From positions 1 to 8,206 of the forward strand of contig JAUWBQ010000070.1 of assembly GCA_030601645.1 (NCBI GenBank): a stretch of 8,206 nucleotides of DNA, written 5' to 3'. A program made the translations under genes and the position numbers. Numbering within the stretch: the stretch's first letter is position 1; every line of letters starts with the position of its first letter. The notes below the pieces were generated by a model. That model was not told the DNA's origin. It ran no database searches and saw only the letters and a program-made list of their open reading frames with translations. Below, piece after piece: positions 1 through 8,206 of the stretch. The stretch comes from Candidatus Bathyarchaeota archaeon. GTDB taxonomy: Archaea; Thermoproteota; Bathyarchaeia; TCS64.

Positions 1-102
1 CTGGGAGCCGACACCGTCGAGATCCTCCACCAGCTCGGATACGACGATGGAGAGATCAAGCAACTGATAAAAGAGGGCGTGGCACACACGAGCGATGCCT
101 GA
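1..102 (+). CDS. CaiB/BaiF family III CoA-transferase, C-terminal end (partial)
   Basis: An open frame runs in from the left edge and stops at TGA 100-102, giving the last 33 residues of a larger protein. It reads LGADTVEILHQLGYDDGEI and continues KQLIKEGV. This matches the usual tail of family III CoA-transferases, whose last helix has the form 'LGEHTEEVLRELGYSDEEIAELREEGV'. Those enzymes move CoA between a thioester and a free acid in the cytoplasm through an aspartyl-CoA intermediate. The catalytic part lies outside the window, so the substrate cannot be judged from this piece. The stop overlaps the first possible start of the next gene by 8 nt, so the two are almost certainly co-transcribed and translationally coupled. 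The family call rests on the tail motif only. Confidence 0.75.
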   Translation: MGADTVEILHQLGYDDGEIKQLIKEGVAHTSDA

Positions 103-1147
103 GATCACTCCGTGCCGAGAAAGAGATTATATGCAGAATACAATCAACTCTCTCATCATGGGCTCGACACTTCCCCACCACACCGACGTCGAGAGGCTCG
201 TCAGGCGCTCCTCGCTGATCTTCCCCGTGAACGTGCAGCGGTTCGTAGAGAAGGCCTACCTGAGGGGGGCGGACTGCATAGTCATGGACCTCGAGGACTC
301 CGTACCCGAGGGCGAGAAGGAGGCGGCGAGGGGCCTGATCAGGGACTACATTCCTGTCGTTGGCAAGGGGGGCGGAGACGTCGCTGTCAGGATCAACCGC
401 CCCATCGACCAGGCGACCGAGGATCTGGAGGCCTCCGTGTGGCCCGGGCTGGCCTGCGTGGCCTTGCCCAAGGTCGAGTCGGCCGAGGAGGTCTGCGCCA
501 GGGACGGGATCATCACCGATCTGGAGAGGAGGAGGGGGATGGAGGCGGGGACCGTGCAGATAGCCGTCGCCGTGGAGACGGCCCTCGGTGTCGTCAGGGC
601 CTTCGAGATCGCCTCCGCCAGCCCGAGGATAGTGACCATCGGGGTCGGCGCCGAGGACCTGACTCAGGAGATGGGAGTCCAGACGACCGGGGAGGGAAGG
701 GAGCTCTGGTACGCCCGATCGAAGGTCCTGACGGACGCCTACGCTGCGGGGGTCCAGCCGATGGGGCTCGTCGGCGTCGAGCCCTTCACGTGGCGGGAGC
801 CCGAAAAGGCCTATGACGCGGCGGTCAACTCTCGGAAGCTGGGCTATAAGGGCGCGCAGTCCATCCATCCGGCGCCGATCCCCTACCTCAACGAGGGATT
901 CTCCATACCGCCGAAGGAAGTGACGCACATGAGAAAGGCTCTGGAGGCCTTCGAGGAGGGGATGAGAAAGGGGACGGCGTCGGTGAGCGTCGACGGTAGG
1001 ATGATCGACATCGCCTCGGTGGAGAGGTGCAGGAGGGTCCTGACGAGGGCGGACGCCATCGCAGATATGGATGGAAGGAAGAACGAGGCGCTGAAAGACC
1101 CCGACTCTCTGGAAGAGAAACTCAGGGCTGCAATCGATGAGATCTAG
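95..1147 (+). CDS. HpcH/HpaI aldolase / citrate lyase beta-subunit-like CoA-ester lyase
   Basis: This is a full-length CitE-like protein (350 residues from the first ATG), a TIM-barrel enzyme that cleaves or forms 3-hydroxyacyl-CoA thioesters such as malyl-CoA or citramalyl-CoA using Mg2+. Visible family motifs are: RRSSLIFPVN near the start, DLEDSVP (65-71), the CoA/substrate-binding arginine in VRINRP (98-103), LPKVES (124-129), the metal-ligand glutamate in VETALGV (Glu161), GAEDLTQEMG (185-194) with the metal-ligand aspartate, QSIHP (255-259), and the C-terminal GRMIDIASVERCRRVL helix typical of the CoA lid. The first 12 residues do not look like the family. The ATG at 131, behind a GAGAAAGAG stretch, may be the real start. 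The gene follows a CoA-transferase with an 8-nt overlap, which suggests that the transferase makes the CoA ester and this enzyme splits it. The exact substrate (malyl-, methylmalyl- or citramalyl-CoA) cannot be told from sequence alone. Confidence 0.9.
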   Translation: MPEITPCRERDYMQNTINSLIMGSTLPHHTDVERLVRRSSLIFPVNVQRFVEKAYLRGADCIVMDLEDSVPEGEKEAARGLIRDYIPVVGKGGGDVAVRINRPIDQATEDLEASVWPGLACVALPKVESAEEVCARDGIITDLERRRGMEAGTVQIAVAVETALGVVRAFEIASASPRIVTIGVGAEDLTQEMGVQTTGEGRELWYARSKVLTDAYAAGVQPMGLVGVEPFTWREPEKAYDAAVNSRKLGYKGAQSIHPAPIPYLNEGFSIPPKEVTHMRKALEAFEEGMRKGTASVSVDGRMIDIASVERCRRVLTRADAIADMDGRKNEALKDPDSLEEKLRAAIDEI

Positions 1148-1426
1148 ATCGTGTGGCGTTCAACTGGCGTGTACGCGAGTTTGTAGCCCCGGAGATTCGT
1201 ACTCCCTTGGTTTATGGCAACGCCTAACAGGCTCGCATTCAAAGAACCCTTAGAAATTAGCTCTCCTGTTTCCCTTCTTTTTCATTCAACGCCAATCGTG
1301 TACGCGGAGATGGAGAATATCGGCACCATCTACACAGGGGGTATAAGAATCGCGCAGGGTTTCTCTTTGATTTTCTGCAATCGCACGCGAATAAGCTTGG
1401 ATTATTTAATTACAGATACCCGTTTG

Positions 1427-1640
1427 TCACTTTTCCATTTTCTTCCTAATGTTTTCCTTCTCGTTCTCAAGTTCTTCTATACTTTCCTCGACGGATTCAC
1501 GGAGTTTCATGAGCTTATCCTTGATCCCTTTATTTGAGGCCAAGCGTTCCACCACCTCATTCTTCTTCAATCGCTCTAATCAATTCATCGTACGTGTTTA
1601 GCTCACCTGAACGGAGCTCGATTTAGCCTTTTTTCACTGA
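1427..1640 (-). pseudogene. decayed small gene(s), possibly antitoxin-like plus a coiled-coil tail
   Basis: On the minus strand two abutting frames look coding, but neither makes a whole gene. The first (1622 to the stop at 1557) reads ELRSGELNTYDELIRAIEEE. The 'tYDELI' pattern resembles the C-terminal helix of small archaeal antitoxins (VapB or ribbon-helix-helix type). An in-frame TAA (1623-1625) and the lack of a start codon cut it off upstream, where the same frame reads FVNIEDFSVKKG. The second, shifted by one, runs from a possible TTG at 1570 to TGA at 1427-1429. It gives about 47 residues, highly charged and helical (KLRESVEESIEELENEKEN), likely a coiled coil. The two overlap by 14 nt. 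They could be one frameshifted gene, or the end of one gene followed by a very short second one. The family is not certain, and decay is inferred from the stops and missing starts. Confidence 0.35.
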
Positions 1641-1748
1641 AAAATCTTCAATATTTACGAAAAGAAGGTCAAATCAGGCTCTTTCAAAAGTAGCAATAAC
1701 ACATACAAATCGCGAAATAAATGTTACGAATAATCCACAAAGCAATAA

Positions 1749-1760
1749 TTAATATATTTT
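1749..1760 (+). promoter_or_regulatory. TATA box of the S9 peptidase gene (leaderless start)
   Basis: TTAATATATTTT is centred about 28 nt upstream of the ATG at 1783. In archaea transcription starts about 25 nt after the TATA centre, so the transcript would begin at or a few bases before the ATG. No Shine-Dalgarno sequence is present (the bases before the ATG are ACCATATAAT), which fits a leaderless mRNA. Confidence 0.6.
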
Positions 1761-1782
1761 TTACAATTAAGAACCATATAAT

Positions 1783-2808
1783 ATGTCAAGAAAATCTTCT
1801 GATGATTCAGTGAACGGGTCATTGAAAGAGATAATTAGAGAAATCGACGAGTTGAAGGATCGGTTCAACTCGACAAAGCACGTTCTCGATATGATCCTGA
1901 AAGAGGTAGATGATGTCCTCTGGTATCAGAGGGTGGGTTGCGTCGCCCATATCGGCAAGCATCGTTTGACAGGCCCTCCTTCCCAGCATGCGCCGAATCC
2001 TTCGGCCCAGGGGGCTGGGAACCCCGTCGTTTTCTACACTTATACTTTTGTCCCTAAGAACGCGGACAAGTCCGAGAAGCTGCCCCTCGTGGTGATGCCT
2101 CATCTCGGAATCAGGAGCAACTTCAACTGCAACTACCAGTTCCCCATGGGGAACATCGTCCGTGAGTTCATGGAGCAAGGCTACATCATAGTAGCGCCGG
2201 AGTACCGGGGAAGCACCGGATACGGTGAGAAGTTCGTGAAGCTCATCGATTATGGCGGTTTAGAGATCGAAGACACGTTCGCTGCCCGTAATTGGATGGT
2301 TGAGAACTACGACCTCGTCGATCCCGATCGGGTCGGGATCGTGGGGTGGAGTCACGGGGGTCTCCACACGCTGATGAATATATTCCACCACCCGGAAGCA
2401 TACAAAGTTGCTTATGCAGGGGTCCCCGTCTCAGATCTGATCGCCCGTATGGGATACAAGACTCAGGAATACAGAGATTTATATTCCGCTGAATATCATC
2501 TTGGGAAGACCGCTTTCGAAGATGTCAACGAGTACAGGAAGAGGTCTCCAGTCTGGAACACTGAAAAACTACAGACGCCCCTCCTAATCCATACGAATAC
2601 CTCCGATGAAGATGTCAACGTTCTGGAAGTCGAGCATCTTATAAAGTCACTGACGGTGGCGGGAAAAGATTTCGAGTACAAAATATACCAGGACGCCCCA
2701 GGAGGACACAGCTTCAACCAGATAGATACAAAACTTGCCAAGGAGTCACGCAGAGAAGTCTACAAGTTCCTGGCGAGATACCTGAAACCTCTCAACCCTA
2801 TGACATAG
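1783..2808 (+). CDS. S9-family (prolyl oligopeptidase-like) serine peptidase / alpha-beta hydrolase
   Basis: A 341-residue cytoplasmic protein with an alpha/beta-hydrolase catalytic domain of the S9 type. The family triad is complete: nucleophile Ser190 in GWSHGG (188-193), Asp275 in NTSDEDVNV, and His309 in DAPGGHSF (304-311). The oxyanion-side motif APEYRGSTGYG (138-148) is typical of acylaminoacyl/prolyl oligopeptidases. The usual N-terminal beta-propeller that limits substrate size is absent. In its place are about 50 charged helical residues (KEIIREIDELKDRFNS) and a short Pro/Gly/Asn-rich linker (63-81). No signal peptide or membrane helix is visible. The start at 1783 is supported by the TATA box about 28 nt upstream. 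The gene stands alone and faces the membrane operon tail to tail. It could be an oligopeptidase or an esterase; the substrate is unknown. Confidence 0.88.
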   Translation: MSRKSSDDSVNGSLKEIIREIDELKDRFNSTKHVLDMILKEVDDVLWYQRVGCVAHIGKHRLTGPPSQHAPNPSAQGAGNPVVFYTYTFVPKNADKSEKLPLVVMPHLGIRSNFNCNYQFPMGNIVREFMEQGYIIVAPEYRGSTGYGEKFVKLIDYGGLEIEDTFAARNWMVENYDLVDPDRVGIVGWSHGGLHTLMNIFHHPEAYKVAYAGVPVSDLIARMGYKTQEYRDLYSAEYHLGKTAFEDVNEYRKRSPVWNTEKLQTPLLIHTNTSDEDVNVLEVEHLIKSLTVAGKDFEYKIYQDAPGGHSFNQIDTKLAKESRREVYKFLARYLKPLNPMT

Positions 2809-2832
2809 AGATCTCCTGAGAACCCCCACGCG

Positions 2833-2880
2833 AAAATGAAAACTCCATTTTTCTTTCATTCCTAAAAAAAGAGGGAATAT
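2833..2880. terminator. bidirectional T-rich terminator between convergent genes
   Basis: The 81-nt gap between the stops of the peptidase and the minus-strand operon holds a T-tract on each strand. TTTTTCTTT (2848-2856) serves the plus strand and seven T's (2864-2870 on the minus strand) serve the operon. A weak inverted repeat, AATGAAA (2835-2841) with TTTCATT (2854-2860), lies before the plus-strand end. Archaeal polymerase stops at such T-runs. Confidence 0.5.
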
Positions 2881-2889
2881 ATTCTTTTT

Positions 2890-3501
2890 CTAACCTAGAC
2901 CTAGCCAGTCGTAGAGGAGGAACATGATCCTCCCGGCGTACTGTCCGACCCTCGTGATAACTGTGTTGGCCATGGATGCCCCGAAGGCCATCATCATCAG
3001 GTACCTACCGAGTGTGCTGATGTAGGACATCTGCTTCGCAAGGGTTTCATTCTTCGGCGTCAGCGAGTAGACGAAGTAGACGAGGCAAACAACGACGGTG
3101 AAGACGAAGAAGATGTTGTTAAAGGAGTTCAGCGGCTTGAAGGTATCGACTATCTGCTGAGTGAACTGGAACTCTACAAAGCCTCTGACTGTGACACCCG
3201 TACCGATGCCGATCATAAGCGCCGTCGGATACCTGCTCACCCAAAGGTACCTCTTTGAGTACCTGGTGTAGAGGGCAACCCCGAAGAGCAGCGGTATTAT
3301 CATCGACACTGAACCCTTCATCACACCTGAGATGCCAATCTGGCTGATATTCCTCCAGGCCATGGTGACCAGGTTCCCTGCCGCCGCTGCTAAGAACGTG
3401 TGTTCTGCGAATTTTGCTAAGGGGTTGTCCTTGAAGGCTAGGCTCGTGATAGCGATAGTAAAGAACGCCATGATCCAGATGTTTGGGTCTGTCGATATCA
3501 T
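2890..3501 (-). CDS. polytopic membrane protein, last gene of the DUF6754 operon
   Basis: This 203-residue protein has about six transmembrane helices (near 7-22, 34-50, 61-79, 91-108, 128-146 and 165-183). I know no function. Recognisable features are the loop after helix 1, FKDNPLAKFAEH (23-34), the ...RYLWVSRYPTALMIGIGTG stretch before helix 4, and GRYLMMMAFGASMANT at the C-terminal end. From memory these match a family of conserved membrane proteins found next to DUF6754 genes; this is recollection, not a search result. The start ATG overlaps the stop of the preceding gene (ATGA, 3498-3501), so translation is coupled. It is the promoter-distal gene of four and is followed by a T-tract. 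The short, Gly/Ala-rich helices resemble a membrane-complex subunit or small channel, but nothing in the sequence proves transport. Confidence 0.85.
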   Translation of the reverse strand: MISTDPNIWIMAFFTIAITSLAFKDNPLAKFAEHTFLAAAAGNLVTMAWRNISQIGISGVMKGSVSMIIPLLFGVALYTRYSKRYLWVSRYPTALMIGIGTGVTVRGFVEFQFTQQIVDTFKPLNSFNNIFFVFTVVVCLVYFVYSLTPKNETLAKQMSYISTLGRYLMMMAFGASMANTVITRVGQYAGRIMFLLYDWLGLG

Positions 3502-4343
3502 TTTTTGCTCATCCTCCCCTTCATGATAAAGCCGATGTTTCCCAGTAACAAGAACGCGAAAACGACCAAGTTGCTGAATGAGTAGACGTCAGTTAGTTTT
3601 ACAGCATCCCCGGGTTTCCCGATTAGAACCTCCAGCTCCGCGGCGCCCACGCCGCCATTGATCAGTCCTGTAATCTGACCAGAGGCCCAGAAGGGCAGGA
3701 TCGTGGGGGTCATCATCTCTCCGCAGTGGATGTGAGTAATCACGCCATACTGGGTGTTGAACTGCCTAACAAAGGACTCCGGGGAGCCCATCGTAAACGA
3801 GATTAGCATTGTGTAGTCCTCGTAGTTTTGCACTTCTTGCATCAGGGGCAGGTCGTCAAGTGGCGTGTTGAAGTTATCAGTTGAGAACGCACTCCTGATG
3901 TCCGAAGCCACAGCGGCTAACGCAGTCTCCTGACCGGCAATGTATCCGAGGTAGACGTAGTCTTCACCGTATATGTAGCCGGCACTATCGAGGGATGGCT
4001 GGAGCTTGGGGAGCATCAGGTTGTACATCATAGGCCCCTCCGCCGCCGTGGACAGTATGACCATCTTGGCTCCCTGCTGTATCGTCTGGTACGCGACAGC
4101 AAGGAAACCCGGCTCATGGAAGGCCATCGAGCCTGCACCGTAGTCCAGGAACATTATGAATACGTCTCCATCTTGGAGCGTTTCCAGAGAGTCGTACATC
4201 GTTATTGTCTGTGGCGAGATCGGTATGGGAAGCCCTAGGGGATTAAGCAGGGGGATGATCATAGATATGATCACCACGATGTAGAGCACCCATCTCGGGA
4301 TCGTCTGAATCCGATCCCAGATGGTTCTATCTTCGGATTCCAT
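3498..4343 (-). CDS. bitopic membrane protein with large extracytoplasmic domain (DUF6754 operon)
   Basis: The 281 residues have one N-terminal helix (about 17-38), a soluble region of about 215 residues, and one C-terminal helix (about 256-274) followed by the basic tail MKGRMSKK. Positive charges flank both helices on the chain-end sides (Arg11, Arg17; the Lys/Arg tail), so both ends should be cytoplasmic and the middle outside. The middle shows alternating strands and helices: DGDVFIMFLDYGAGS (58-72), GAKMVILSTAAEGP (91-104), GEDYVYLGYIAGQE (126-139), YTMLISFTMGSPE (177-189), then THIHCGEMMTP (203-213), with the only cysteine, and SGQITGLINGGVGAAELE (221-238). This suggests a Rossmann-like alpha/beta fold; I cannot name the family. 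A strong ribosome binding site (4349-4358) lies just upstream. The gene begins at the base after the previous stop, so co-translation is expected. Function unknown. Confidence 0.85.
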   Translation of the reverse strand: MESEDRTIWDRIQTIPRWVLYIVVIISMIIPLLNPLGLPIPISPQTITMYDSLETLQDGDVFIMFLDYGAGSMAFHEPGFLAVAYQTIQQGAKMVILSTAAEGPMMYNLMLPKLQPSLDSAGYIYGEDYVYLGYIAGQETALAAVASDIRSAFSTDNFNTPLDDLPLMQEVQNYEDYTMLISFTMGSPESFVRQFNTQYGVITHIHCGEMMTPTILPFWASGQITGLINGGVGAAELEVLIGKPGDAVKLTDVYSFSNLVVFAFLLLGNIGFIMKGRMSKK

Positions 4344-4988
4344 CTATGCCCCCTCCTCTCTTCCCAGGTGGGTCTGCTCAAGCCCGAATATGAACCTGAA
4401 CCCTAGCATGATGGTGCCCAGGCCGATTCCAAGTAGTATGGCTCTGTATGCAGCTGTAAGCTCTACGTCCATTATCCAAGCCTTGATTACTTGTAGAGGA
4501 GGAAACATGACTGCTAGCACTGGCGCGTTTGCGAGAAGGATGATCGCTCCTGTCAGCACGAAGATGAGGGCCTGGCCACTTCGAATTCGGAATGTCCTGT
4601 ATATGGCTGAACAGAGGAAGAACAGCGTCGCAGGGTACATGGTTCCGCTCAGCGGCTGAAGTATTGTGTTGTAAAGATACGTGTATTGTGAGGAAGTGTT
4701 CCCGAGTCCTATGCCGACCAAGGAGAAGGTAAAGAAGACGACGAGCAGCCATATTGCGTACAGCCAGTCCGTTCCCTCTCTTTTCTGTATTCTTTTGACA
4801 TTTAGGATGATGATGTTCACCGAGCCGAGACCCATTGCGAAGGCTGCGACCACGATACCCCATTGCTGAACAGAGGTTGCCAGATCGTCTATGATGGATA
4901 CGTTGAAGAACCACTGGCCGATCATCAACATTCCCACGAGGAAGGTGATGATCAGCGGGATCGTCCGTCTAACTATTTTTGTACTCAT
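4344..4988 (-). CDS. polytopic membrane protein, second gene of the DUF6754 operon
   Basis: The 214-residue protein has about six transmembrane helices (near 10-28, 42-62, 76-95, 116-132, 139-158 and 180-202), joined by short loops with basic patches such as NVKRIQKREG (63-72) and YRTFRIRSGQ (130-139). No catalytic or ligand motif is visible and I cannot name a family. The start is well fixed by the ribosome binding site GAGGTGAT (4992-4999 on the minus strand), which lies in the 10-nt gap after the first gene's stop. The stop abuts the start of the third gene. Its place between the DUF6754 protein and the extracytoplasmic-domain protein suggests a membrane subunit of the same complex. Confidence 0.85.
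   Translation of the reverse strand: MSTKIVRRTIPLIITFLVGMLMIGQWFFNVSIIDDLATSVQQWGIVVAAFAMGLGSVNIIILNVKRIQKREGTDWLYAIWLLVVFFTFSLVGIGLGNTSSQYTYLYNTILQPLSGTMYPATLFFLCSAIYRTFRIRSGQALIFVLTGAIILLANAPVLAVMFPPLQVIKAWIMDVELTAAYRAILLGIGLGTIMLGFRFIFGLEQTHLGREEGA
4349..4358 (-). promoter_or_regulatory. ribosome binding site of the third operon gene
   Basis: GAGGAGGGGG on the minus strand ends 5 nt before the ATG at 4343 and lies inside the last codons of the preceding gene. It fixes the start and shows tight coupling. Confidence 0.7.
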
Positions 4989-4991
4989 CTC

Positions 4992-4999
4992 ATCACCTC
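4992..4999 (-). promoter_or_regulatory. ribosome binding site of the second operon gene
   Basis: GAGGTGAT on the minus strand matches the archaeal anti-16S consensus almost fully. It begins at the last base of the stop codon of the DUF6754 gene and ends 3 nt before the ATG at 4988. Confidence 0.75.
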
Positions 5000-5778
5000 T
5001 ACATGTTCAACAGGTTCGTAAGGGCCTGGTTTCCGAAAGTTACCAACAGTGCTCCGAGTATCAGCAGTACCAGCGTGATCCACTTGAACGTGTCCTGTCC
5101 TGCAATTGTGGCGATCAGCTTCGGATCTTTACTGATGTAAGCACTTACAGGATAGATCTCCTCGCCGATCAGCACGTAGTCGCACGCCCCGGCGAAGAAG
5201 GGGATCTGGTACAGGTTTGTAGTCCCTCCGATTTGTATAGCCCCTACACGCCCGAAGGCCTCAGCCCAGATGCAGGACTCGTGCCAGTAGTAGCCTATCA
5301 TGATGTTAGCGGCCGGTCTCACCCTGTCGGCGAGGGCCATAACTGAAGCCTGAACGGGCAGGAAAGGTATCATCTCCTCAGGCTGGAATCTGTCGATTGC
5401 TCCCGCAACCAAGTATGCGTCCCGAATGATCTCCGTTGCGACTGGGATCGTTTCGACTCCTCCAACCGCGTACATGGGAGCGAGGAGCTTTGCATCGAGC
5501 CTTGCGGTTATGTCCGCTACGTATCCCAATACCGATAGTCCGGCCATGGTCGGCGGAGCATACTCGCCTCTCAGCAAGCCCCCGCCGCCGATGTTCATGA
5601 TGACTGTTTTGTCCATCTCGACGGCCCTGCCGACCGCCTCCTCGATGGCGTCGATGGCCACCATCCTCCTGATGGTGAACCGGTCACCCCCGACGACGTA
5701 GATGTATAGGGCGCCCACGCCCCATATCAGCACCAGAAAGACAAAGTCTATTATTTTTCCGTCAACTATTAGTCCCAT
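4999..5778 (-). CDS. DUF6754-type membrane-anchored protein, first gene of operon
   Basis: The 259-residue protein has an N-terminal helix (about 9-29), a soluble domain (about 35-230) and a C-terminal helix (about 232-249). I recognise the domain as DUF6754-like from AIEEAVGRAVEMDKTVIMNI (44-63), the Gly-rich GGGGLLRGEYAPPTMAGLSV (64-83), PVATEIIRDAYLVAG (112-126), MIGYYWHESCIWAEA (160-174), GAIQIGGT (179-186), and ACDYVLIGEEIYPVSAYIS (198-216). Basic residues follow the first helix (DRFTIRR, 32-38), so the domain most likely faces the cytoplasm. The conserved-looking His166, Glu167, Cys169 and Cys199 are candidates for a ligand or metal site. It leads a four-gene minus-strand operon with its own TATA box and a palindromic operator-like site. 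No biochemical role is known to me. The name rests on recalled motif resemblance. Confidence 0.85.
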   Translation of the reverse strand: MGLIVDGKIIDFVFLVLIWGVGALYIYVVGGDRFTIRRMVAIDAIEEAVGRAVEMDKTVIMNIGGGGLLRGEYAPPTMAGLSVLGYVADITARLDAKLLAPMYAVGGVETIPVATEIIRDAYLVAGAIDRFQPEEMIPFLPVQASVMALADRVRPAANIMIGYYWHESCIWAEAFGRVGAIQIGGTTNLYQIPFFAGACDYVLIGEEIYPVSAYISKDPKLIATIAGQDTFKWITLVLLILGALLVTFGNQALTNLLNM

Positions 5779-5788
5779 TTTTCTTACC

Positions 5789-5808
5789 AGTCGTTCAATA
5801 GAACGACT
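5789..5808. promoter_or_regulatory. perfect palindrome at operon transcription start (putative operator)
   Basis: AGTCGTTC (5789-5796) and its exact inverted copy GAACGACT (5801-5808) are separated by AATA. The site lies between the operon TATA box (5817-5824) and the ATG at 5778, covering the predicted transcription start near 5795. A repressor bound there would block transcription; alternatively it forms a short 5'-leader hairpin. A related half-site, AGTCGTT, lies at 5863-5869. Confidence 0.6.
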
Positions 5809-5816
5809 AATCTAAG

Positions 5817-5824
5817 AATATATT
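5817..5824 (-). promoter_or_regulatory. TATA box of the DUF6754 operon
   Basis: AATATATT is centred about 42 nt upstream of the ATG at 5778. It predicts a transcript start near 5795 and a leader of about 17 nt, with a weak GGTAAG ribosome binding site just before the ATG. Confidence 0.5.
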
Positions 5825-5936
5825 GGATGAATATATAACATATACATATATATAGAAATGGAAGTCGTTTATATTTAGATGAAAGTACTATAATGTTTAA
5901 AACCATCTTTGAAAATACAACGAACACTCACAAGAA

Positions 5937-5946
5937 TTATAAAGTT
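5937..5946 (+). promoter_or_regulatory. TATA box of the serine hydrolase gene
   Basis: TTATAAAG lies about 30-35 nt upstream of the ATG at 5974, with a second AT-rich element (TTTAATAAAAT) just after it. A start about 25 nt downstream would leave a leader of a few bases. No Shine-Dalgarno sequence is seen (GTGAAATTAA precedes the ATG), so the mRNA is probably leaderless or nearly so. Confidence 0.5.
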
Positions 5947-5973
5947 TAATAAAATAAAAGAATGTGAAATTAA

Positions 5974-6897
5974 ATGACATTACAATCGGATATAGAACAG
6001 ATGATATATAAGACCGAAGTGAAATTTGGAATCTCGATACGATATATTGAGCTTTGTAAAGAGATCCTGATAAACGCTGACGAAGCATACCATCTAGCAA
6101 GCGTCGTAAAAGTACCCATTATGGTAGAGGCTTTCCGTCAGATGGAGAAAGAGAAAACCCTCACACTAGACGAACGGCTGAAATGTGAAGATTCCTTCAA
6201 GCTATCCGGGACGGGGATTCTGAAGTTCCTTGACGAAGAACTGACCCCCACAATAGGAGACTTCATCACCCTCATGATAATTATCAGCGACAACACGGCG
6301 ACCGACACCCTCCTGGAGAGGCTGGGAGGCCCCCTGAAGGTCGACGCCACAATGAAAGCTCTGGGCCTCAAAGACATTCACACCAAGATGACCATCAGGC
6401 AGGCTCACTGGGACCGGGGGATCAGGAGAGAACCAATGACAGATCCCAGGGAGGTTGAGAAGGCAAAAAGGGAGATGAGGCTGATTTTCGATTCCGCTAG
6501 CTACACTGCAAGCCCAGAGGGGAACAGCGCCACTCCACGGGCTATGACGGAGCTACTCCGCAGAATTTACAGCCGCGAAATTTGGAGCAAAAGCGCTTGC
6601 GACAAGATGATGGAGATAATGTACAGACAGCAGAGGAACACGCGCATCCCCAGAAAGTTGCCCAGGGGGATCTTGGTCGCCCATAAGACCGGCACTATAA
6701 CGGGCGTGGCGAACGACGCAGGCATAATAGAGATCGCCAAAGACAACCACTGCGTCATAACCATTTTCACCAGAGACGAAGAGTTCATGGAGCGCAGGGA
6801 CCCTATGAAAGCTAGGGAGAAACTTCCGATCATCGAATCAATAATGGGAGAAATCGCCCTCCTAGCCTACAACTACGGAAAAAACCTAACCTCTTAA
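5974..6897 (+). CDS. class A beta-lactamase-fold serine hydrolase (Beta-lactamase2-like)
   Basis: A 307-residue protein of the penicillin-recognising serine hydrolase superfamily. All three signature motifs are present in order: SVVK (Ser43 nucleophile, Lys46), SDN (105-107) and KTG (238-240). ATPRAMTELLRRIYS (186-200) is the family helix that follows the omega loop. A clear ExxxN omega-loop motif carrying the deacylating Glu166 of true class A beta-lactamases is not visible; the region before the helix is SASYTASPEGNS. A DD-peptidase- or esterase-like activity is therefore more likely than antibiotic resistance. No signal peptide precedes the domain: the N-terminus is charged (SDIEQMIYKTEVKF) and begins the fold directly, so the enzyme is probably cytoplasmic. 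The substrate is unknown, and an archaeon would normally lack peptidoglycan. It is transcribed divergently from the DUF6754 operon. Its last 12 nt overlap the next gene on the other strand. Confidence 0.88.
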   Translation: MTLQSDIEQMIYKTEVKFGISIRYIELCKEILINADEAYHLASVVKVPIMVEAFRQMEKEKTLTLDERLKCEDSFKLSGTGILKFLDEELTPTIGDFITLMIIISDNTATDTLLERLGGPLKVDATMKALGLKDIHTKMTIRQAHWDRGIRREPMTDPREVEKAKREMRLIFDSASYTASPEGNSATPRAMTELLRRIYSREIWSKSACDKMMEIMYRQQRNTRIPRKLPRGILVAHKTGTITGVANDAGIIEIAKDNHCVITIFTRDEEFMERRDPMKAREKLPIIESIMGEIALLAYNYGKNLTS

Positions 6898-7275
6898 CTT
6901 TATCACATTCAAGTACGACGCTATTATCCCGCTCATAAGGAAGCAGAAGAGGAGGGATATGCTGAGATCGATGTGGAAGGCAGAGGAGAATGTCATCATC
7001 AAAGGTATGGACATCAACCATGAAGCGATCGCGCTCGTCATGCCAATTTTGGAAAAGTCCTTCTGAACCTTCAATATTAGAAAATACGCCCCTGTGATCC
7101 CACCCGTAATATAGACGAGGTAGGACACGATTGTGACTACATCGGAACCCATGATGGAGAATAGTGGGAGCGCACTCAGGACCATGTTCCAGAGCCACAC
7201 GAACGCGTTTGAGACAATCGCAGCTGCAAAGAAGTCGAAGAACGTTAGCTTCCGGGCTCCATCGCCTTCACCCAT
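6886..7275 (-). CDS. small four-helix membrane protein, unknown function
   Basis: This 129-residue protein begins with a short charged end (MGEGDGARK). About four transmembrane helices follow (near 11-30, 45-66, 79-96 and 104-121), ending in the basic tail NVIKLRG. I recognise no family, and no catalytic or binding motif is visible. The start at 7275 is supported by a GAGGAGG ribosome binding site (7281-7287 on the minus strand) and by a TATAAATA box (7311-7318). The gene therefore has its own promoter and is not part of the DUF6754 operon transcript. It converges on the serine hydrolase, and the two coding ends overlap by 12 nt (6886-6897), with no room for a terminator between them. Confidence 0.75.
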   Translation of the reverse strand: MGEGDGARKLTFFDFFAAAIVSNAFVWLWNMVLSALPLFSIMGSDVVTIVSYLVYITGGITGAYFLILKVQKDFSKIGMTSAIASWLMSIPLMMTFSSAFHIDLSISLLFCFLMSGIIASYLNVIKLRG

Positions 7276-7280
7276 CTTTT

Positions 7281-7318
7281 CCTCCTCTCCACTACTGGAG
7301 TTATAATGTCTATTTATA
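7281..7318 (-). promoter_or_regulatory. promoter and ribosome binding site of the four-helix membrane protein
   Basis: TATAAATA (7311-7318, minus strand) predicts a start near 7290. The ribosome binding site GAGGAGG (7281-7287) precedes the ATG at 7275 by 5 nt. A small inverted repeat, CTCCA/TGGAG with a 4-nt loop (7287-7300), touches the ribosome binding site. Confidence 0.55.
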
Positions 7319-7324
7319 GTTCTA

Positions 7325-7618
7325 ATGGAAATGAAGGATTCTCAAGCCATGAAATATATTATGAATGATGTCTCACCTTTACTTAGTTGGATTGAATGTC
7401 GGGCCTCCCTCGATGGCTTGTATAGCTGAGGGATGACCGCGCCCTCGCGCGCGACATGTGGCAATTTTGAGAGGTTGCAGAGGATGTGCACGGGGGCTCT
7501 CGATGCGGGTTTCATCGTGAAGAATAAGGTTGTCGATCGAGGAGAGTTCATAGAGAGGAGGACGGCTGAGCTGAAGAGTATATGGCCCTCAAGAATTCTG
7601 TTCTTAAGAGATCAGTAG
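7325..7618 (+). pseudogene. interrupted reading frame, possible broken or small hypothetical gene
   Basis: A plus-strand frame opens with several ATGs (7325, 7331, 7349) and is stopped by TGA at 7427-7429. It reopens 3 nt later at ATG 7433 and runs to TAG 7616-7618. The second part (61 residues) has coding-like codon use and a helical, charged pattern (DAGFIVKNKVVDRGEFIERR, then a TAELKSIW segment). The first part (34 residues) is less convincing. AT-rich TTATAATG (7301-7308) lies about 20 nt before the first ATG and could be a promoter, though the same stretch is the leader of the opposite gene. I do not recognise a family. It may be one gene broken by a stop, the 3' remnant of a larger gene, or chance. 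Confidence 0.3.
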
Positions 7619-7653
7619 CAAGCTTTGAGAGCCCTGAGGAGATTCGAACTCTA

Positions 7654-7691
7654 GTCTGAGGCTCCAGAGGCCCCCATTCTCGCCTCCAGAC
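7654..7691. repeat. imperfect inverted repeat (hairpin)
   Basis: GTCTGAGGC (7654-7662) pairs with GCCTCCAGAC (7682-7691). The stem is nine base pairs with one bulged base, and the loop is 19 nt. CTCCAGA is also present twice as a direct repeat (7662-7668 and 7684-7690). It lies between the broken frame and the vapC stop, where it could act as a 3'-end structure for either side. There is no flanking T-tract, so a terminator role is uncertain. Confidence 0.4.
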
Positions 7692-7729
7692 AATTCATCT
7701 ATCGAATATCTCGATCTTTCCGTAGGGTG

Positions 7730-8152
7730 TCAGTACAATGATATGTGCCTGAGGGCCTCGTGTCTCACCTTGTCGATCAGCCTCCGATCGGCCGTGTAGA
7801 CGGGGATGTCTTTCGCCACGCCCAGGGAGAGATAGGCCGAGTCGTACACGGATATGCCGTACTTCAACGAGTTCTCGACGCACCTCTCGGCGAGCTCCCC
7901 CTCAAGGGGCAGAGTCCACAGGCTGAACTTCTCCAGCGCCCGGGCTGTACTGACGAGCTGATTCTCCCCGAAGCCGGGGTTGTACCTGAGGGCGTTGAGG
8001 ACCTCGTAGGGCATGAGGTCCGGGGTGGCGATGTCGACGATCCGGTCGGCGTAGTCTTCCCTGAGCCTGAGGGCGTCGTCGGTGTGCTCCTCCTCGACGA
8101 ACCACTTGACGACGACGGAGGCGTCCGCGACCACTACCTCCTCTCTCTCCAC
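7730..8152 (-). CDS. vapC: VapC-type PIN-domain ribonuclease toxin
   Basis: A 140-residue, full-length PIN domain, the toxin of a type II VapBC toxin-antitoxin pair. VapC proteins are Mg2+-dependent RNases that cut tRNA or rRNA when freed from VapB. The four acidic residues are present: Asp10 (VADASVVVKW), Glu50 (MPYEVLNAL), Asp104 (VYDSAYLSL) and Asp122 (YTADRRL). The first start is GTG at 8152. A second GTG at 8134, reading VVADAS, is also possible because the family usually starts only one or two residues before this strand. The gene begins inside the end of the antitoxin gene in another frame, so the two are translationally coupled and probably autoregulated by the VapBC complex at a promoter outside the window. 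All catalytic residues are intact, so the toxin looks active. Confidence 0.9.
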   Translation of the reverse strand: MEREEVVVADASVVVKWFVEEEHTDDALRLREDYADRIVDIATPDLMPYEVLNALRYNPGFGENQLVSTARALEKFSLWTLPLEGELAERCVENSLKYGISVYDSAYLSLGVAKDIPVYTADRRLIDKVRHEALRHISLY

Positions 8153-8206
8153 CTGCGGATCTCCTCCGTGCTGTCCCAGCCCTCCGACTTCGCCCTGAGG
8201 GAGTCC
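8134..8206 (-). CDS. vapB: VapB-type antitoxin, C-terminal end (partial)
   Basis: In another minus-strand frame, entering from the right edge and stopping at TAG 8134-8136, the translation is DSLRAKSEGW followed by DSTEEIRRWRERR. The 'gWDStEEIRrWR' ending is characteristic of archaeal VapB antitoxins, whose tail wraps the PIN active site with an arginine. Only the last 23 residues lie in the window, so the DNA-binding fold (AbrB or ribbon-helix-helix) cannot be seen. It overlaps the first vapC start by 19 nt, the usual arrangement for such pairs. Confidence 0.75.
   Translation of the reverse strand, partial: DSLRAKSEGWDSTEEIRRWRERR

Follow-up and report, generated by a model that had tools for sequence, protein, structure and literature searches.

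Contig JAUWBQ010000070.1 of a Candidatus Bathyarchaeota archaeon, analysed at positions 1 to 8,206 (the window), carries four closely packed genes for membrane proteins, the first of which encodes a DUF6754 protein. Do these four proteins work together and, if so, at what task? We found that the order of the four genes is conserved far beyond chance, and this order, with the co-occurrence of the families, supports a joint function. An earlier note on this DNA had described a minus-strand membrane operon, and its coordinates and spacings were confirmed. The features are as follows.

4999..5778, minus strand: P1, the DUF6754 protein, 259 amino acids (open reading frame (ORF) list and PF20539 match)
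4344..4988, minus strand: P2, 214 amino acids, six hydrophobic segments (ORF list and averaged hydropathy)
3498..4343, minus strand: P3, 281 amino acids, two transmembrane (TM) helices and a 212-residue domain (ORF list and AlphaFold model)
2890..3501, minus strand: P4, 203 amino acids, six (or seven) hydrophobic segments (ORF list and averaged hydropathy)
3498..3501, minus strand: ATGA stop/start overlap of P3 with P4 (read in the sequence)

A gap of 10 nt separates P1 from P2, P2 and P3 abut directly (0 nt), and P3 and P4 share the 4-nt ATGA overlap; from this spacing, co-translation of the four genes is plausible. The helix counts given earlier were also borne out, with two helices each in the AlphaFold models of P1 and P3, six in P2 and six or seven in P4 by hydropathy. 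P4 gave seven hydropathy windows, the last two of which (167-183 and 187-203) lie so close that they could form a single segment.

The four genes stay together across bacteria and archaea

One scan of reference genomes with the P1 alignment, in which the best 80 of 417 matches were confirmed, gave 78 loci. Going by record titles, the loci belong to Bathyarchaeota, Culexarchaeum, Bacillota, Armatimonadota, Cloacimonadota, Zixibacteria, WOR-3, Neomarinimicrobiota, Terriglobia and further groups; because contigs or genomes are shared among some of them, they are not all independent. Profile searches on six-frame translations detected 89 copies of DUF6754 in 79 sources, the window included. Gene order was read at the 78 copies with at least 2.6 kb downstream, again with the window's own among them, and 11 copies nearer a contig end were omitted. 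The loci were found with DUF6754 alone, and the P2, P3 and P4 profiles were built from these same loci. P2, P3 and P4 came next, on the same strand and in that order, in 74 of the 78 copies, so that the rare co-occurrence of the four families, which the earlier note had named as grounds for dropping its proposal, was not what we found. The arrangement was plain in 68 of the 74, had one gene matched twice in 2 and was joined by a second operon tail to tail in 4. Across 57 complete units the median gaps were 16, 3 and 3 nt, and the identical -4 overlap of P3 and P4 was present in 15.

The spread of the family was then measured in whole genomes, sampled evenly from the phylum of a centre genome. 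DUF6754 was present in all 118 genomes of the sample around G003 (Zixibacteria), at one to six copies each, and in 103 of 121 around G005 (Armatimonadota). It was found in 3 of 149 around G004 (Terriglobia, Acidobacteriota) and in 4 of 200 around G001 (Bathyarchaeota, which GTDB places in Thermoproteota). None of 14 well-known control genomes had it. P3 occurred in 104 of the 121 Armatimonadota genomes and agreed with DUF6754 in 118 (102 with both, 16 with neither, 2 with P3 only and 1 with DUF6754 only); in one of the Armatimonadota, G432, the two are separated on the contig. Multiple copies keep the arrangement as well. DUF6754 matched 14 times in the Fermentithermobacillus genome G002, twice as a fragment, and the 12 longer copies there have P3 beside them in 12 cases, P2 in 11 and P4 in 11, while the Culexarchaeum genome G008 has P2-P3-P4 at all seven copies. 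Two or three copies sit in a single locus in, among others, L055, L011 and L022.

Candidate soluble and accessory partners

Four further families recur near the operon: C7 (MutL/GlmL-like) and C9 in 14 of the 79 sources each, with both in 13, C5 (a small protein) in 19 and C15 in 9. C15 is a two-helix membrane protein, PH-like by reading of its alignment. MutL was the commonest family among 124 neighbouring proteins, with 6 members. C7 of locus L047 belongs to the MutL/GlmL superfamily PF13941 (E 4e-129, 431.7 bits vs 27) and lies under the NCBIfam GlmL cut-offs (236.3 vs 475 bits for NF040745 and 165.9 vs 204 for TIGR01319; E 6e-70). The C7 consensus keeps what we take to be two ASKHA-type phosphate motifs. 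C9 has about 375 residues and a weak likeness to biotin/lipoyl or RnfC-type barrels, RraA and SPT5 (KOW), and its search against solved structures gave a weak RraA match (E 0.007); we provisionally call it a soluble barrel-sandwich/KOW-like protein.

C9 follows DUF6754 through whole genomes. It was present in 109 of the 121 Armatimonadota genomes and agreed with DUF6754 in 113 (102 with both, 11 with neither; Fisher p 3e-10, which is overstated as the genomes are related). Agreement was complete in the Acidobacteriota sample (149/149) and around G001 (200/200); all these counts assume an identical sample for both profiles, as the genome handles indicate. The identical 3 of 149 Acidobacteriota genomes held DUF6754, C9 and a strong C7 (E at most 1.7e-287), in the order C7-C9-DUF6754 on one contig in 3/3, and three more had weak C7 matches only. 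Around G001, the identical 4 of 200 held DUF6754 and C9. As a control, ribosomal protein S2 was present in 17 of 19 genomes without DUF6754 or C9 (in three as a fragment only), so most absences are not due to missing sequence.

By eye, C9 lay less than 1 kb from DUF6754 in 13 Armatimonadota genomes (for example G332, G372 and G414) and a few kb away in four more. In eleven (G336, G345, G367, G375, G401, G404, G408, G413, G415, G432 and G440) the two genes shared a contig at a distance of 0.5 to 2.2 Mb, and in the other genomes viewed they were on different contigs, which may reflect fragmentation. Linkage alone thus does not account for the co-occurrence. Single C9 genes accompany 7, 7 and 6 DUF6754 copies in the archaea G008, G070 and G141, and G001 has two of each.

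In a Culexarchaeum genome, a T2SSE-like ATPase (L098:7689-9515, minus strand) lies near the C7-C9 pair, which includes that genome's only C9 match. DUF483 proteins were seen in or beside the extended cluster in archaea and Bacillota (L019:8673-9587, L040:5738-6679 and L011:12998-13903).

Family membership, predicted folds and topology

P1 is a clear member of DUF6754 (PF20539; E 4.3e-55, 187.1 bits vs a cut-off of 27, residues 11-255), a Pfam entry that carries no function, and we found no paper mentioning either name in literature whose coverage excluded most subscription papers and preprints. P2, P3 and P4 matched no Pfam or NCBIfam family above the curated cut-off. PADLOC models gave 0 matches at E<=0.01 for the window's P1-P4 and for C7, C9, C15 and C5 of L047. 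Profile searches against solved structures returned nothing convincing for P1, P2, P3 or P4 and nothing useful for C7. For P1, 538 homologues were found; the top matches among those with a name come from Bathyarchaeia and Korarchaeota (45-46% identity), which makes an archaeal origin of the window probable. P3 has 73 homologues. The P2 family was present in 65 of the 79 sources by clustering of called ORFs. The P4 profile matched at least 6424 protein clusters at E<=1e-3 when scoring covered the 7999 candidates with most words in common, and no Pfam domain appeared among the 120 clusters shown. The idea that P2 and P4 are six-helix paralogues was dropped as unsupported (hhalign 0.8-4%).

The AlphaFold models are confident for both two-helix proteins. 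P1 (mean pLDDT 93.5) has long helices at 9-29 (TM1) and 219-247 (TM2); P3 (mean pLDDT 95.9) has TM1 at 17-33 and TM2 at 246-280, with 212 residues between. Compared by the order of their elements, the two models run alike from TM through a helix and alternating strands and helices to TM, P1 being without one middle strand, so that in the models the two domains share a Rossmann-like layout. The P1-P3 profile score of 26.3 exceeded all 100 column-shuffled controls (maximum 23.0) and a reversed control (15.4), a result no more than suggestive of homology. Foldseek results were weak (at E<=0.001, P3 had two matches and P1 none) and the VIA matches were generic Rossmann-like ones, and we therefore ruled out reading a function from the folds.

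The earlier note had placed the two soluble domains on opposite faces of the membrane, and the charge bias favours this placement, clearly so for P1 and for the C-tail of P3. The 15 residues that follow TM1 of P1 contain on average 3.6 lysines or arginines per sequence, compared with 1.0 in the N-tail and 0.9 in the C-tail, so the P1 domain should be cytoplasmic. The P3 C-tail has 2.9 such residues against 0.6 acidic ones. The P3 N-tail gives no such help, with 1.6 basic against 1.9 acidic residues, and hardly stands out from the 1.2 that come after TM1, although IDRR stands where TM1 begins in the family consensus. The P3 domain is thus probably outside, a placement less sure than that of P1. 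Some bacterial P1 proteins also favour opposite faces, since they start with what looks by eye like a signal sequence and carry an additional domain ahead of TM1. Pfam recognised this domain as fn3 in the protein of L045 and as a PQQ_2 propeller in that of L036, and gave no extra match above cut-off for the P1 proteins of L072, L060 and L068. The charge pattern suggests that P2 has both termini inside and that the P4 N-terminus is outside.

Two DUF6754 proteins have a very long N-terminal extension (L036:954-3632 and L057:8357-10798), that of L057 resembling that of L036 by eye.

A proposed complex and its rivals

We consider it very likely that P1-P4 form one physical complex, and probable that this complex is coupled to C7 and C9. 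It would sit in the inner membrane, with P2 and P4 as the membrane core and the like-built Rossmann-like domains of P1 and P3 in the cytoplasm and outside, respectively. C9 and the GlmL-like ASKHA ATPase C7, whose genes lie next to the operon or in other places, would serve it from the cytoplasm, one C9 gene serving several membrane cassettes. The job would be to move a small solute across the membrane in an ATP-linked manner, or to relay a ligand-driven change across it: P3 would bind a ligand outside, P2 and P4 would pass the ligand or change onward, P1 would receive it inside, and C7/C9 would reset the cycle. Between transport on the one hand and signalling or assembly on the other, we tentatively prefer an ATP-linked transporter or translocator, because the design combines folds of the binding type on both faces with a polytopic core, a partner of the ATPase type and numerous cassettes that lie next to different genes. 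Still more speculative, and in our judgement doubtful, is a new class of machine: two related Rossmann-like proteins inserted oppositely, with like-built domains facing each other across the membrane, two six-helix proteins alongside them, and a GlmL-like ASKHA ATPase driving them via a barrel-sandwich adaptor, with a single soluble module shared by several substrate-specific cassettes. The four-gene unit is carried by all genomes in one phylum sample and by 85% in another, occurs also in archaea and has a closely co-occurring soluble partner. It is likely to matter to its carriers, and with gene set, likely topology and partners named, four orphan families become one testable system.

A number of results weigh against this reading. 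Four of the 78 DUF6754 copies break the gene order: L019 is without P4, L048 and L059 are without all three partners, and the second copy in L075 has P2 only. In the 57 complete units the distance matrices of the four proteins show moderate correlation (0.42-0.65), and nearest neighbours match those of P1 in only 32-34. Eight Armatimonadota genomes are mismatched, 7 with C9 only and 1 with DUF6754 only. The P1 and P3 profiles align only weakly (E 0.002-0.009, probability 4.5-13%), and neither P2 nor P4 matched a known transporter. Conservation in P1 is raised at the C-terminal ends of strands 4 to 6 (2.7-3.4 bits vs a mean of 2.5) and low after strands 1 and 2, and the opposite edge of the sheet is equally or more conserved (3.2-4.0 bits); with high conservation at both edges, no ligand site is marked by conservation alone.

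The neighbouring genes bear on the substrate. Several operon copies are flanked by catabolic enzymes and IclR/RpiR regulators, and peptide or amide uptake was considered as the substrate class and rejected, since the controls fail to establish an enrichment of hydrolases. By our own sorting, amide/peptide hydrolases made up 6 of 20 flank proteins (from G002 and G008) and 2 of 20 proteins drawn at random as controls (from G002 and G070; p 0.24). The score limits were 1e-5 and 1e-10, and all six flank hits also passed 1e-10; the count became 6 of 18 once one shadow ORF and one C7-C9 flank were removed. The 4 of 21 amidohydrolase genes of G002 that lie within 6 kb of operon copies (p 0.04) form a post hoc and weak result, and seed counts across the 78 loci were too few for judgement. 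The shadow ORF, L086:3793-4803, is no gene but a product of the greedy ORF caller, placed antisense to DUF6754. L044:9983-10993 (cluster 8) is the same stretch, so cluster 8 is probably wholly an artefact, and further shadow ORFs may remain in the neighbour sets.

The 124 neighbours also include SLBB domains in 3 and prepilin-peptidase-type (type IV leader peptidase, A24) domains in 2, which point to the envelope. This recurrence, and P1 conservation without a favoured sheet edge, slightly lowered our estimates of the transporter and of the new class of machine and raised that of an envelope assembly or export platform, in which the complex would anchor or move a surface structure and the cytoplasmic ASKHA protein would play a PilM-like role, PilM of type IV pili being the comparison for such a protein. 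The presence of the system throughout the Zixibacteria-centred sample, the upstream C15 and C5 genes and the T2SSE-like ATPase adjoining C7-C9 in one archaeal genome all agree with a platform. We nevertheless hold it to be somewhat unlikely, as neither a pilin nor a secretin was among the families matched by at least two of the 124 neighbours, and the system is common to archaea, which have a different envelope. A transmembrane sensor is likewise unlikely. Here the outer domain of P3, together with the fn3 domain or PQQ propeller of bacterial P1, would read an external cue, the cytoplasmic DUF6754 domain would relay it, and C7 would act as a nucleotide-dependent switch. The extra N-terminal domains suit such a role, as do GGDEF, histidine kinase and response regulator domains (2 each among the 124 neighbours), but none of the P1 and P3 proteins scanned showed a fused output domain, and a sensor needs fewer than two polytopic proteins.

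Service to a cobalamin or radical enzyme, with C7 as a GlmL-like reactivating protein and the membrane part supplying or repairing the cofactor, would fit the match of C7 to PF13941 and, under the cut-offs, to GlmL. This seems improbable: 236 bits is far below the GlmL equivalog cut-off of 475, and the families matched by at least two of the 124 neighbours included no B12 enzyme. Least credible of all is an ancient operon of unrelated membrane proteins that form no complex; the moderate correlation of the distances would fit it, but an order kept across bacteria and archaea, and co-absence, are hard to explain without joint function.

Other genes in the window

One further gene belongs to a family that recurs with the operon.

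6886..7275, minus strand: small multi-TM protein of family C12 (match E 4.8e-14 to a hidden Markov model built without this protein)

C12 is found near the operon in seven Bathyarchaeota loci and in 8 of the 79 sources, the window included, and it is a possible accessory outside the core. The gene divergent from P1 (5974-6897, plus strand) encodes a beta-lactamase2-family (PF13354) protein, and a gene of this family also adjoins an operon copy in G002 (L089:4611-5501). Downstream of the operon and convergent with it lies a prolyl-oligopeptidase (S9) family hydrolase (1783-2808, plus strand). The window also encodes a CitE/HpcH-HpaI-type lyase (95-1147, plus strand) and a PIN-domain protein (7730-8152, minus strand), possibly a toxin-antitoxin or RNase gene.

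Comparison with known systems

The system as a whole appears to be new, a view that rests on the absence of matches, in sequence or arrangement, to any known system in the searches described here. DUF6754 is the family of P1, and here it is seen as the first gene of a conserved four-gene unit. A Rossmann-like arrangement in common with Sir2, transhydrogenase domain III, CODH epsilon and RCK domains would show no function; P1 and P3 differ from these proteins in having no Pfam match to them, low Foldseek scores and TM helices flanking the domain. C7 of L047 shares its Pfam family with GlmL/MutL, accessory to glutamate mutase. It differs from GlmL (methylaspartate mutase accessory protein) in scoring under the GlmL cut-offs, in its length of about 614 amino acids and in its link to a membrane operon, and it lies outside the window. 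Unlike ABC and ECF transporters, P1-P4 have no ABC ATPase, permease, S or T component match above cut-off, the only ABC-related row being TMD0_ABC in P2 (E 0.08, below cut-off). In ECF transporters a shared energising module serves many membrane cassettes, and the occurrence of one C9 with several membrane cassettes per genome (G008, G070 and G141) resembles this plan, with C9/C7 in the putative energising role.

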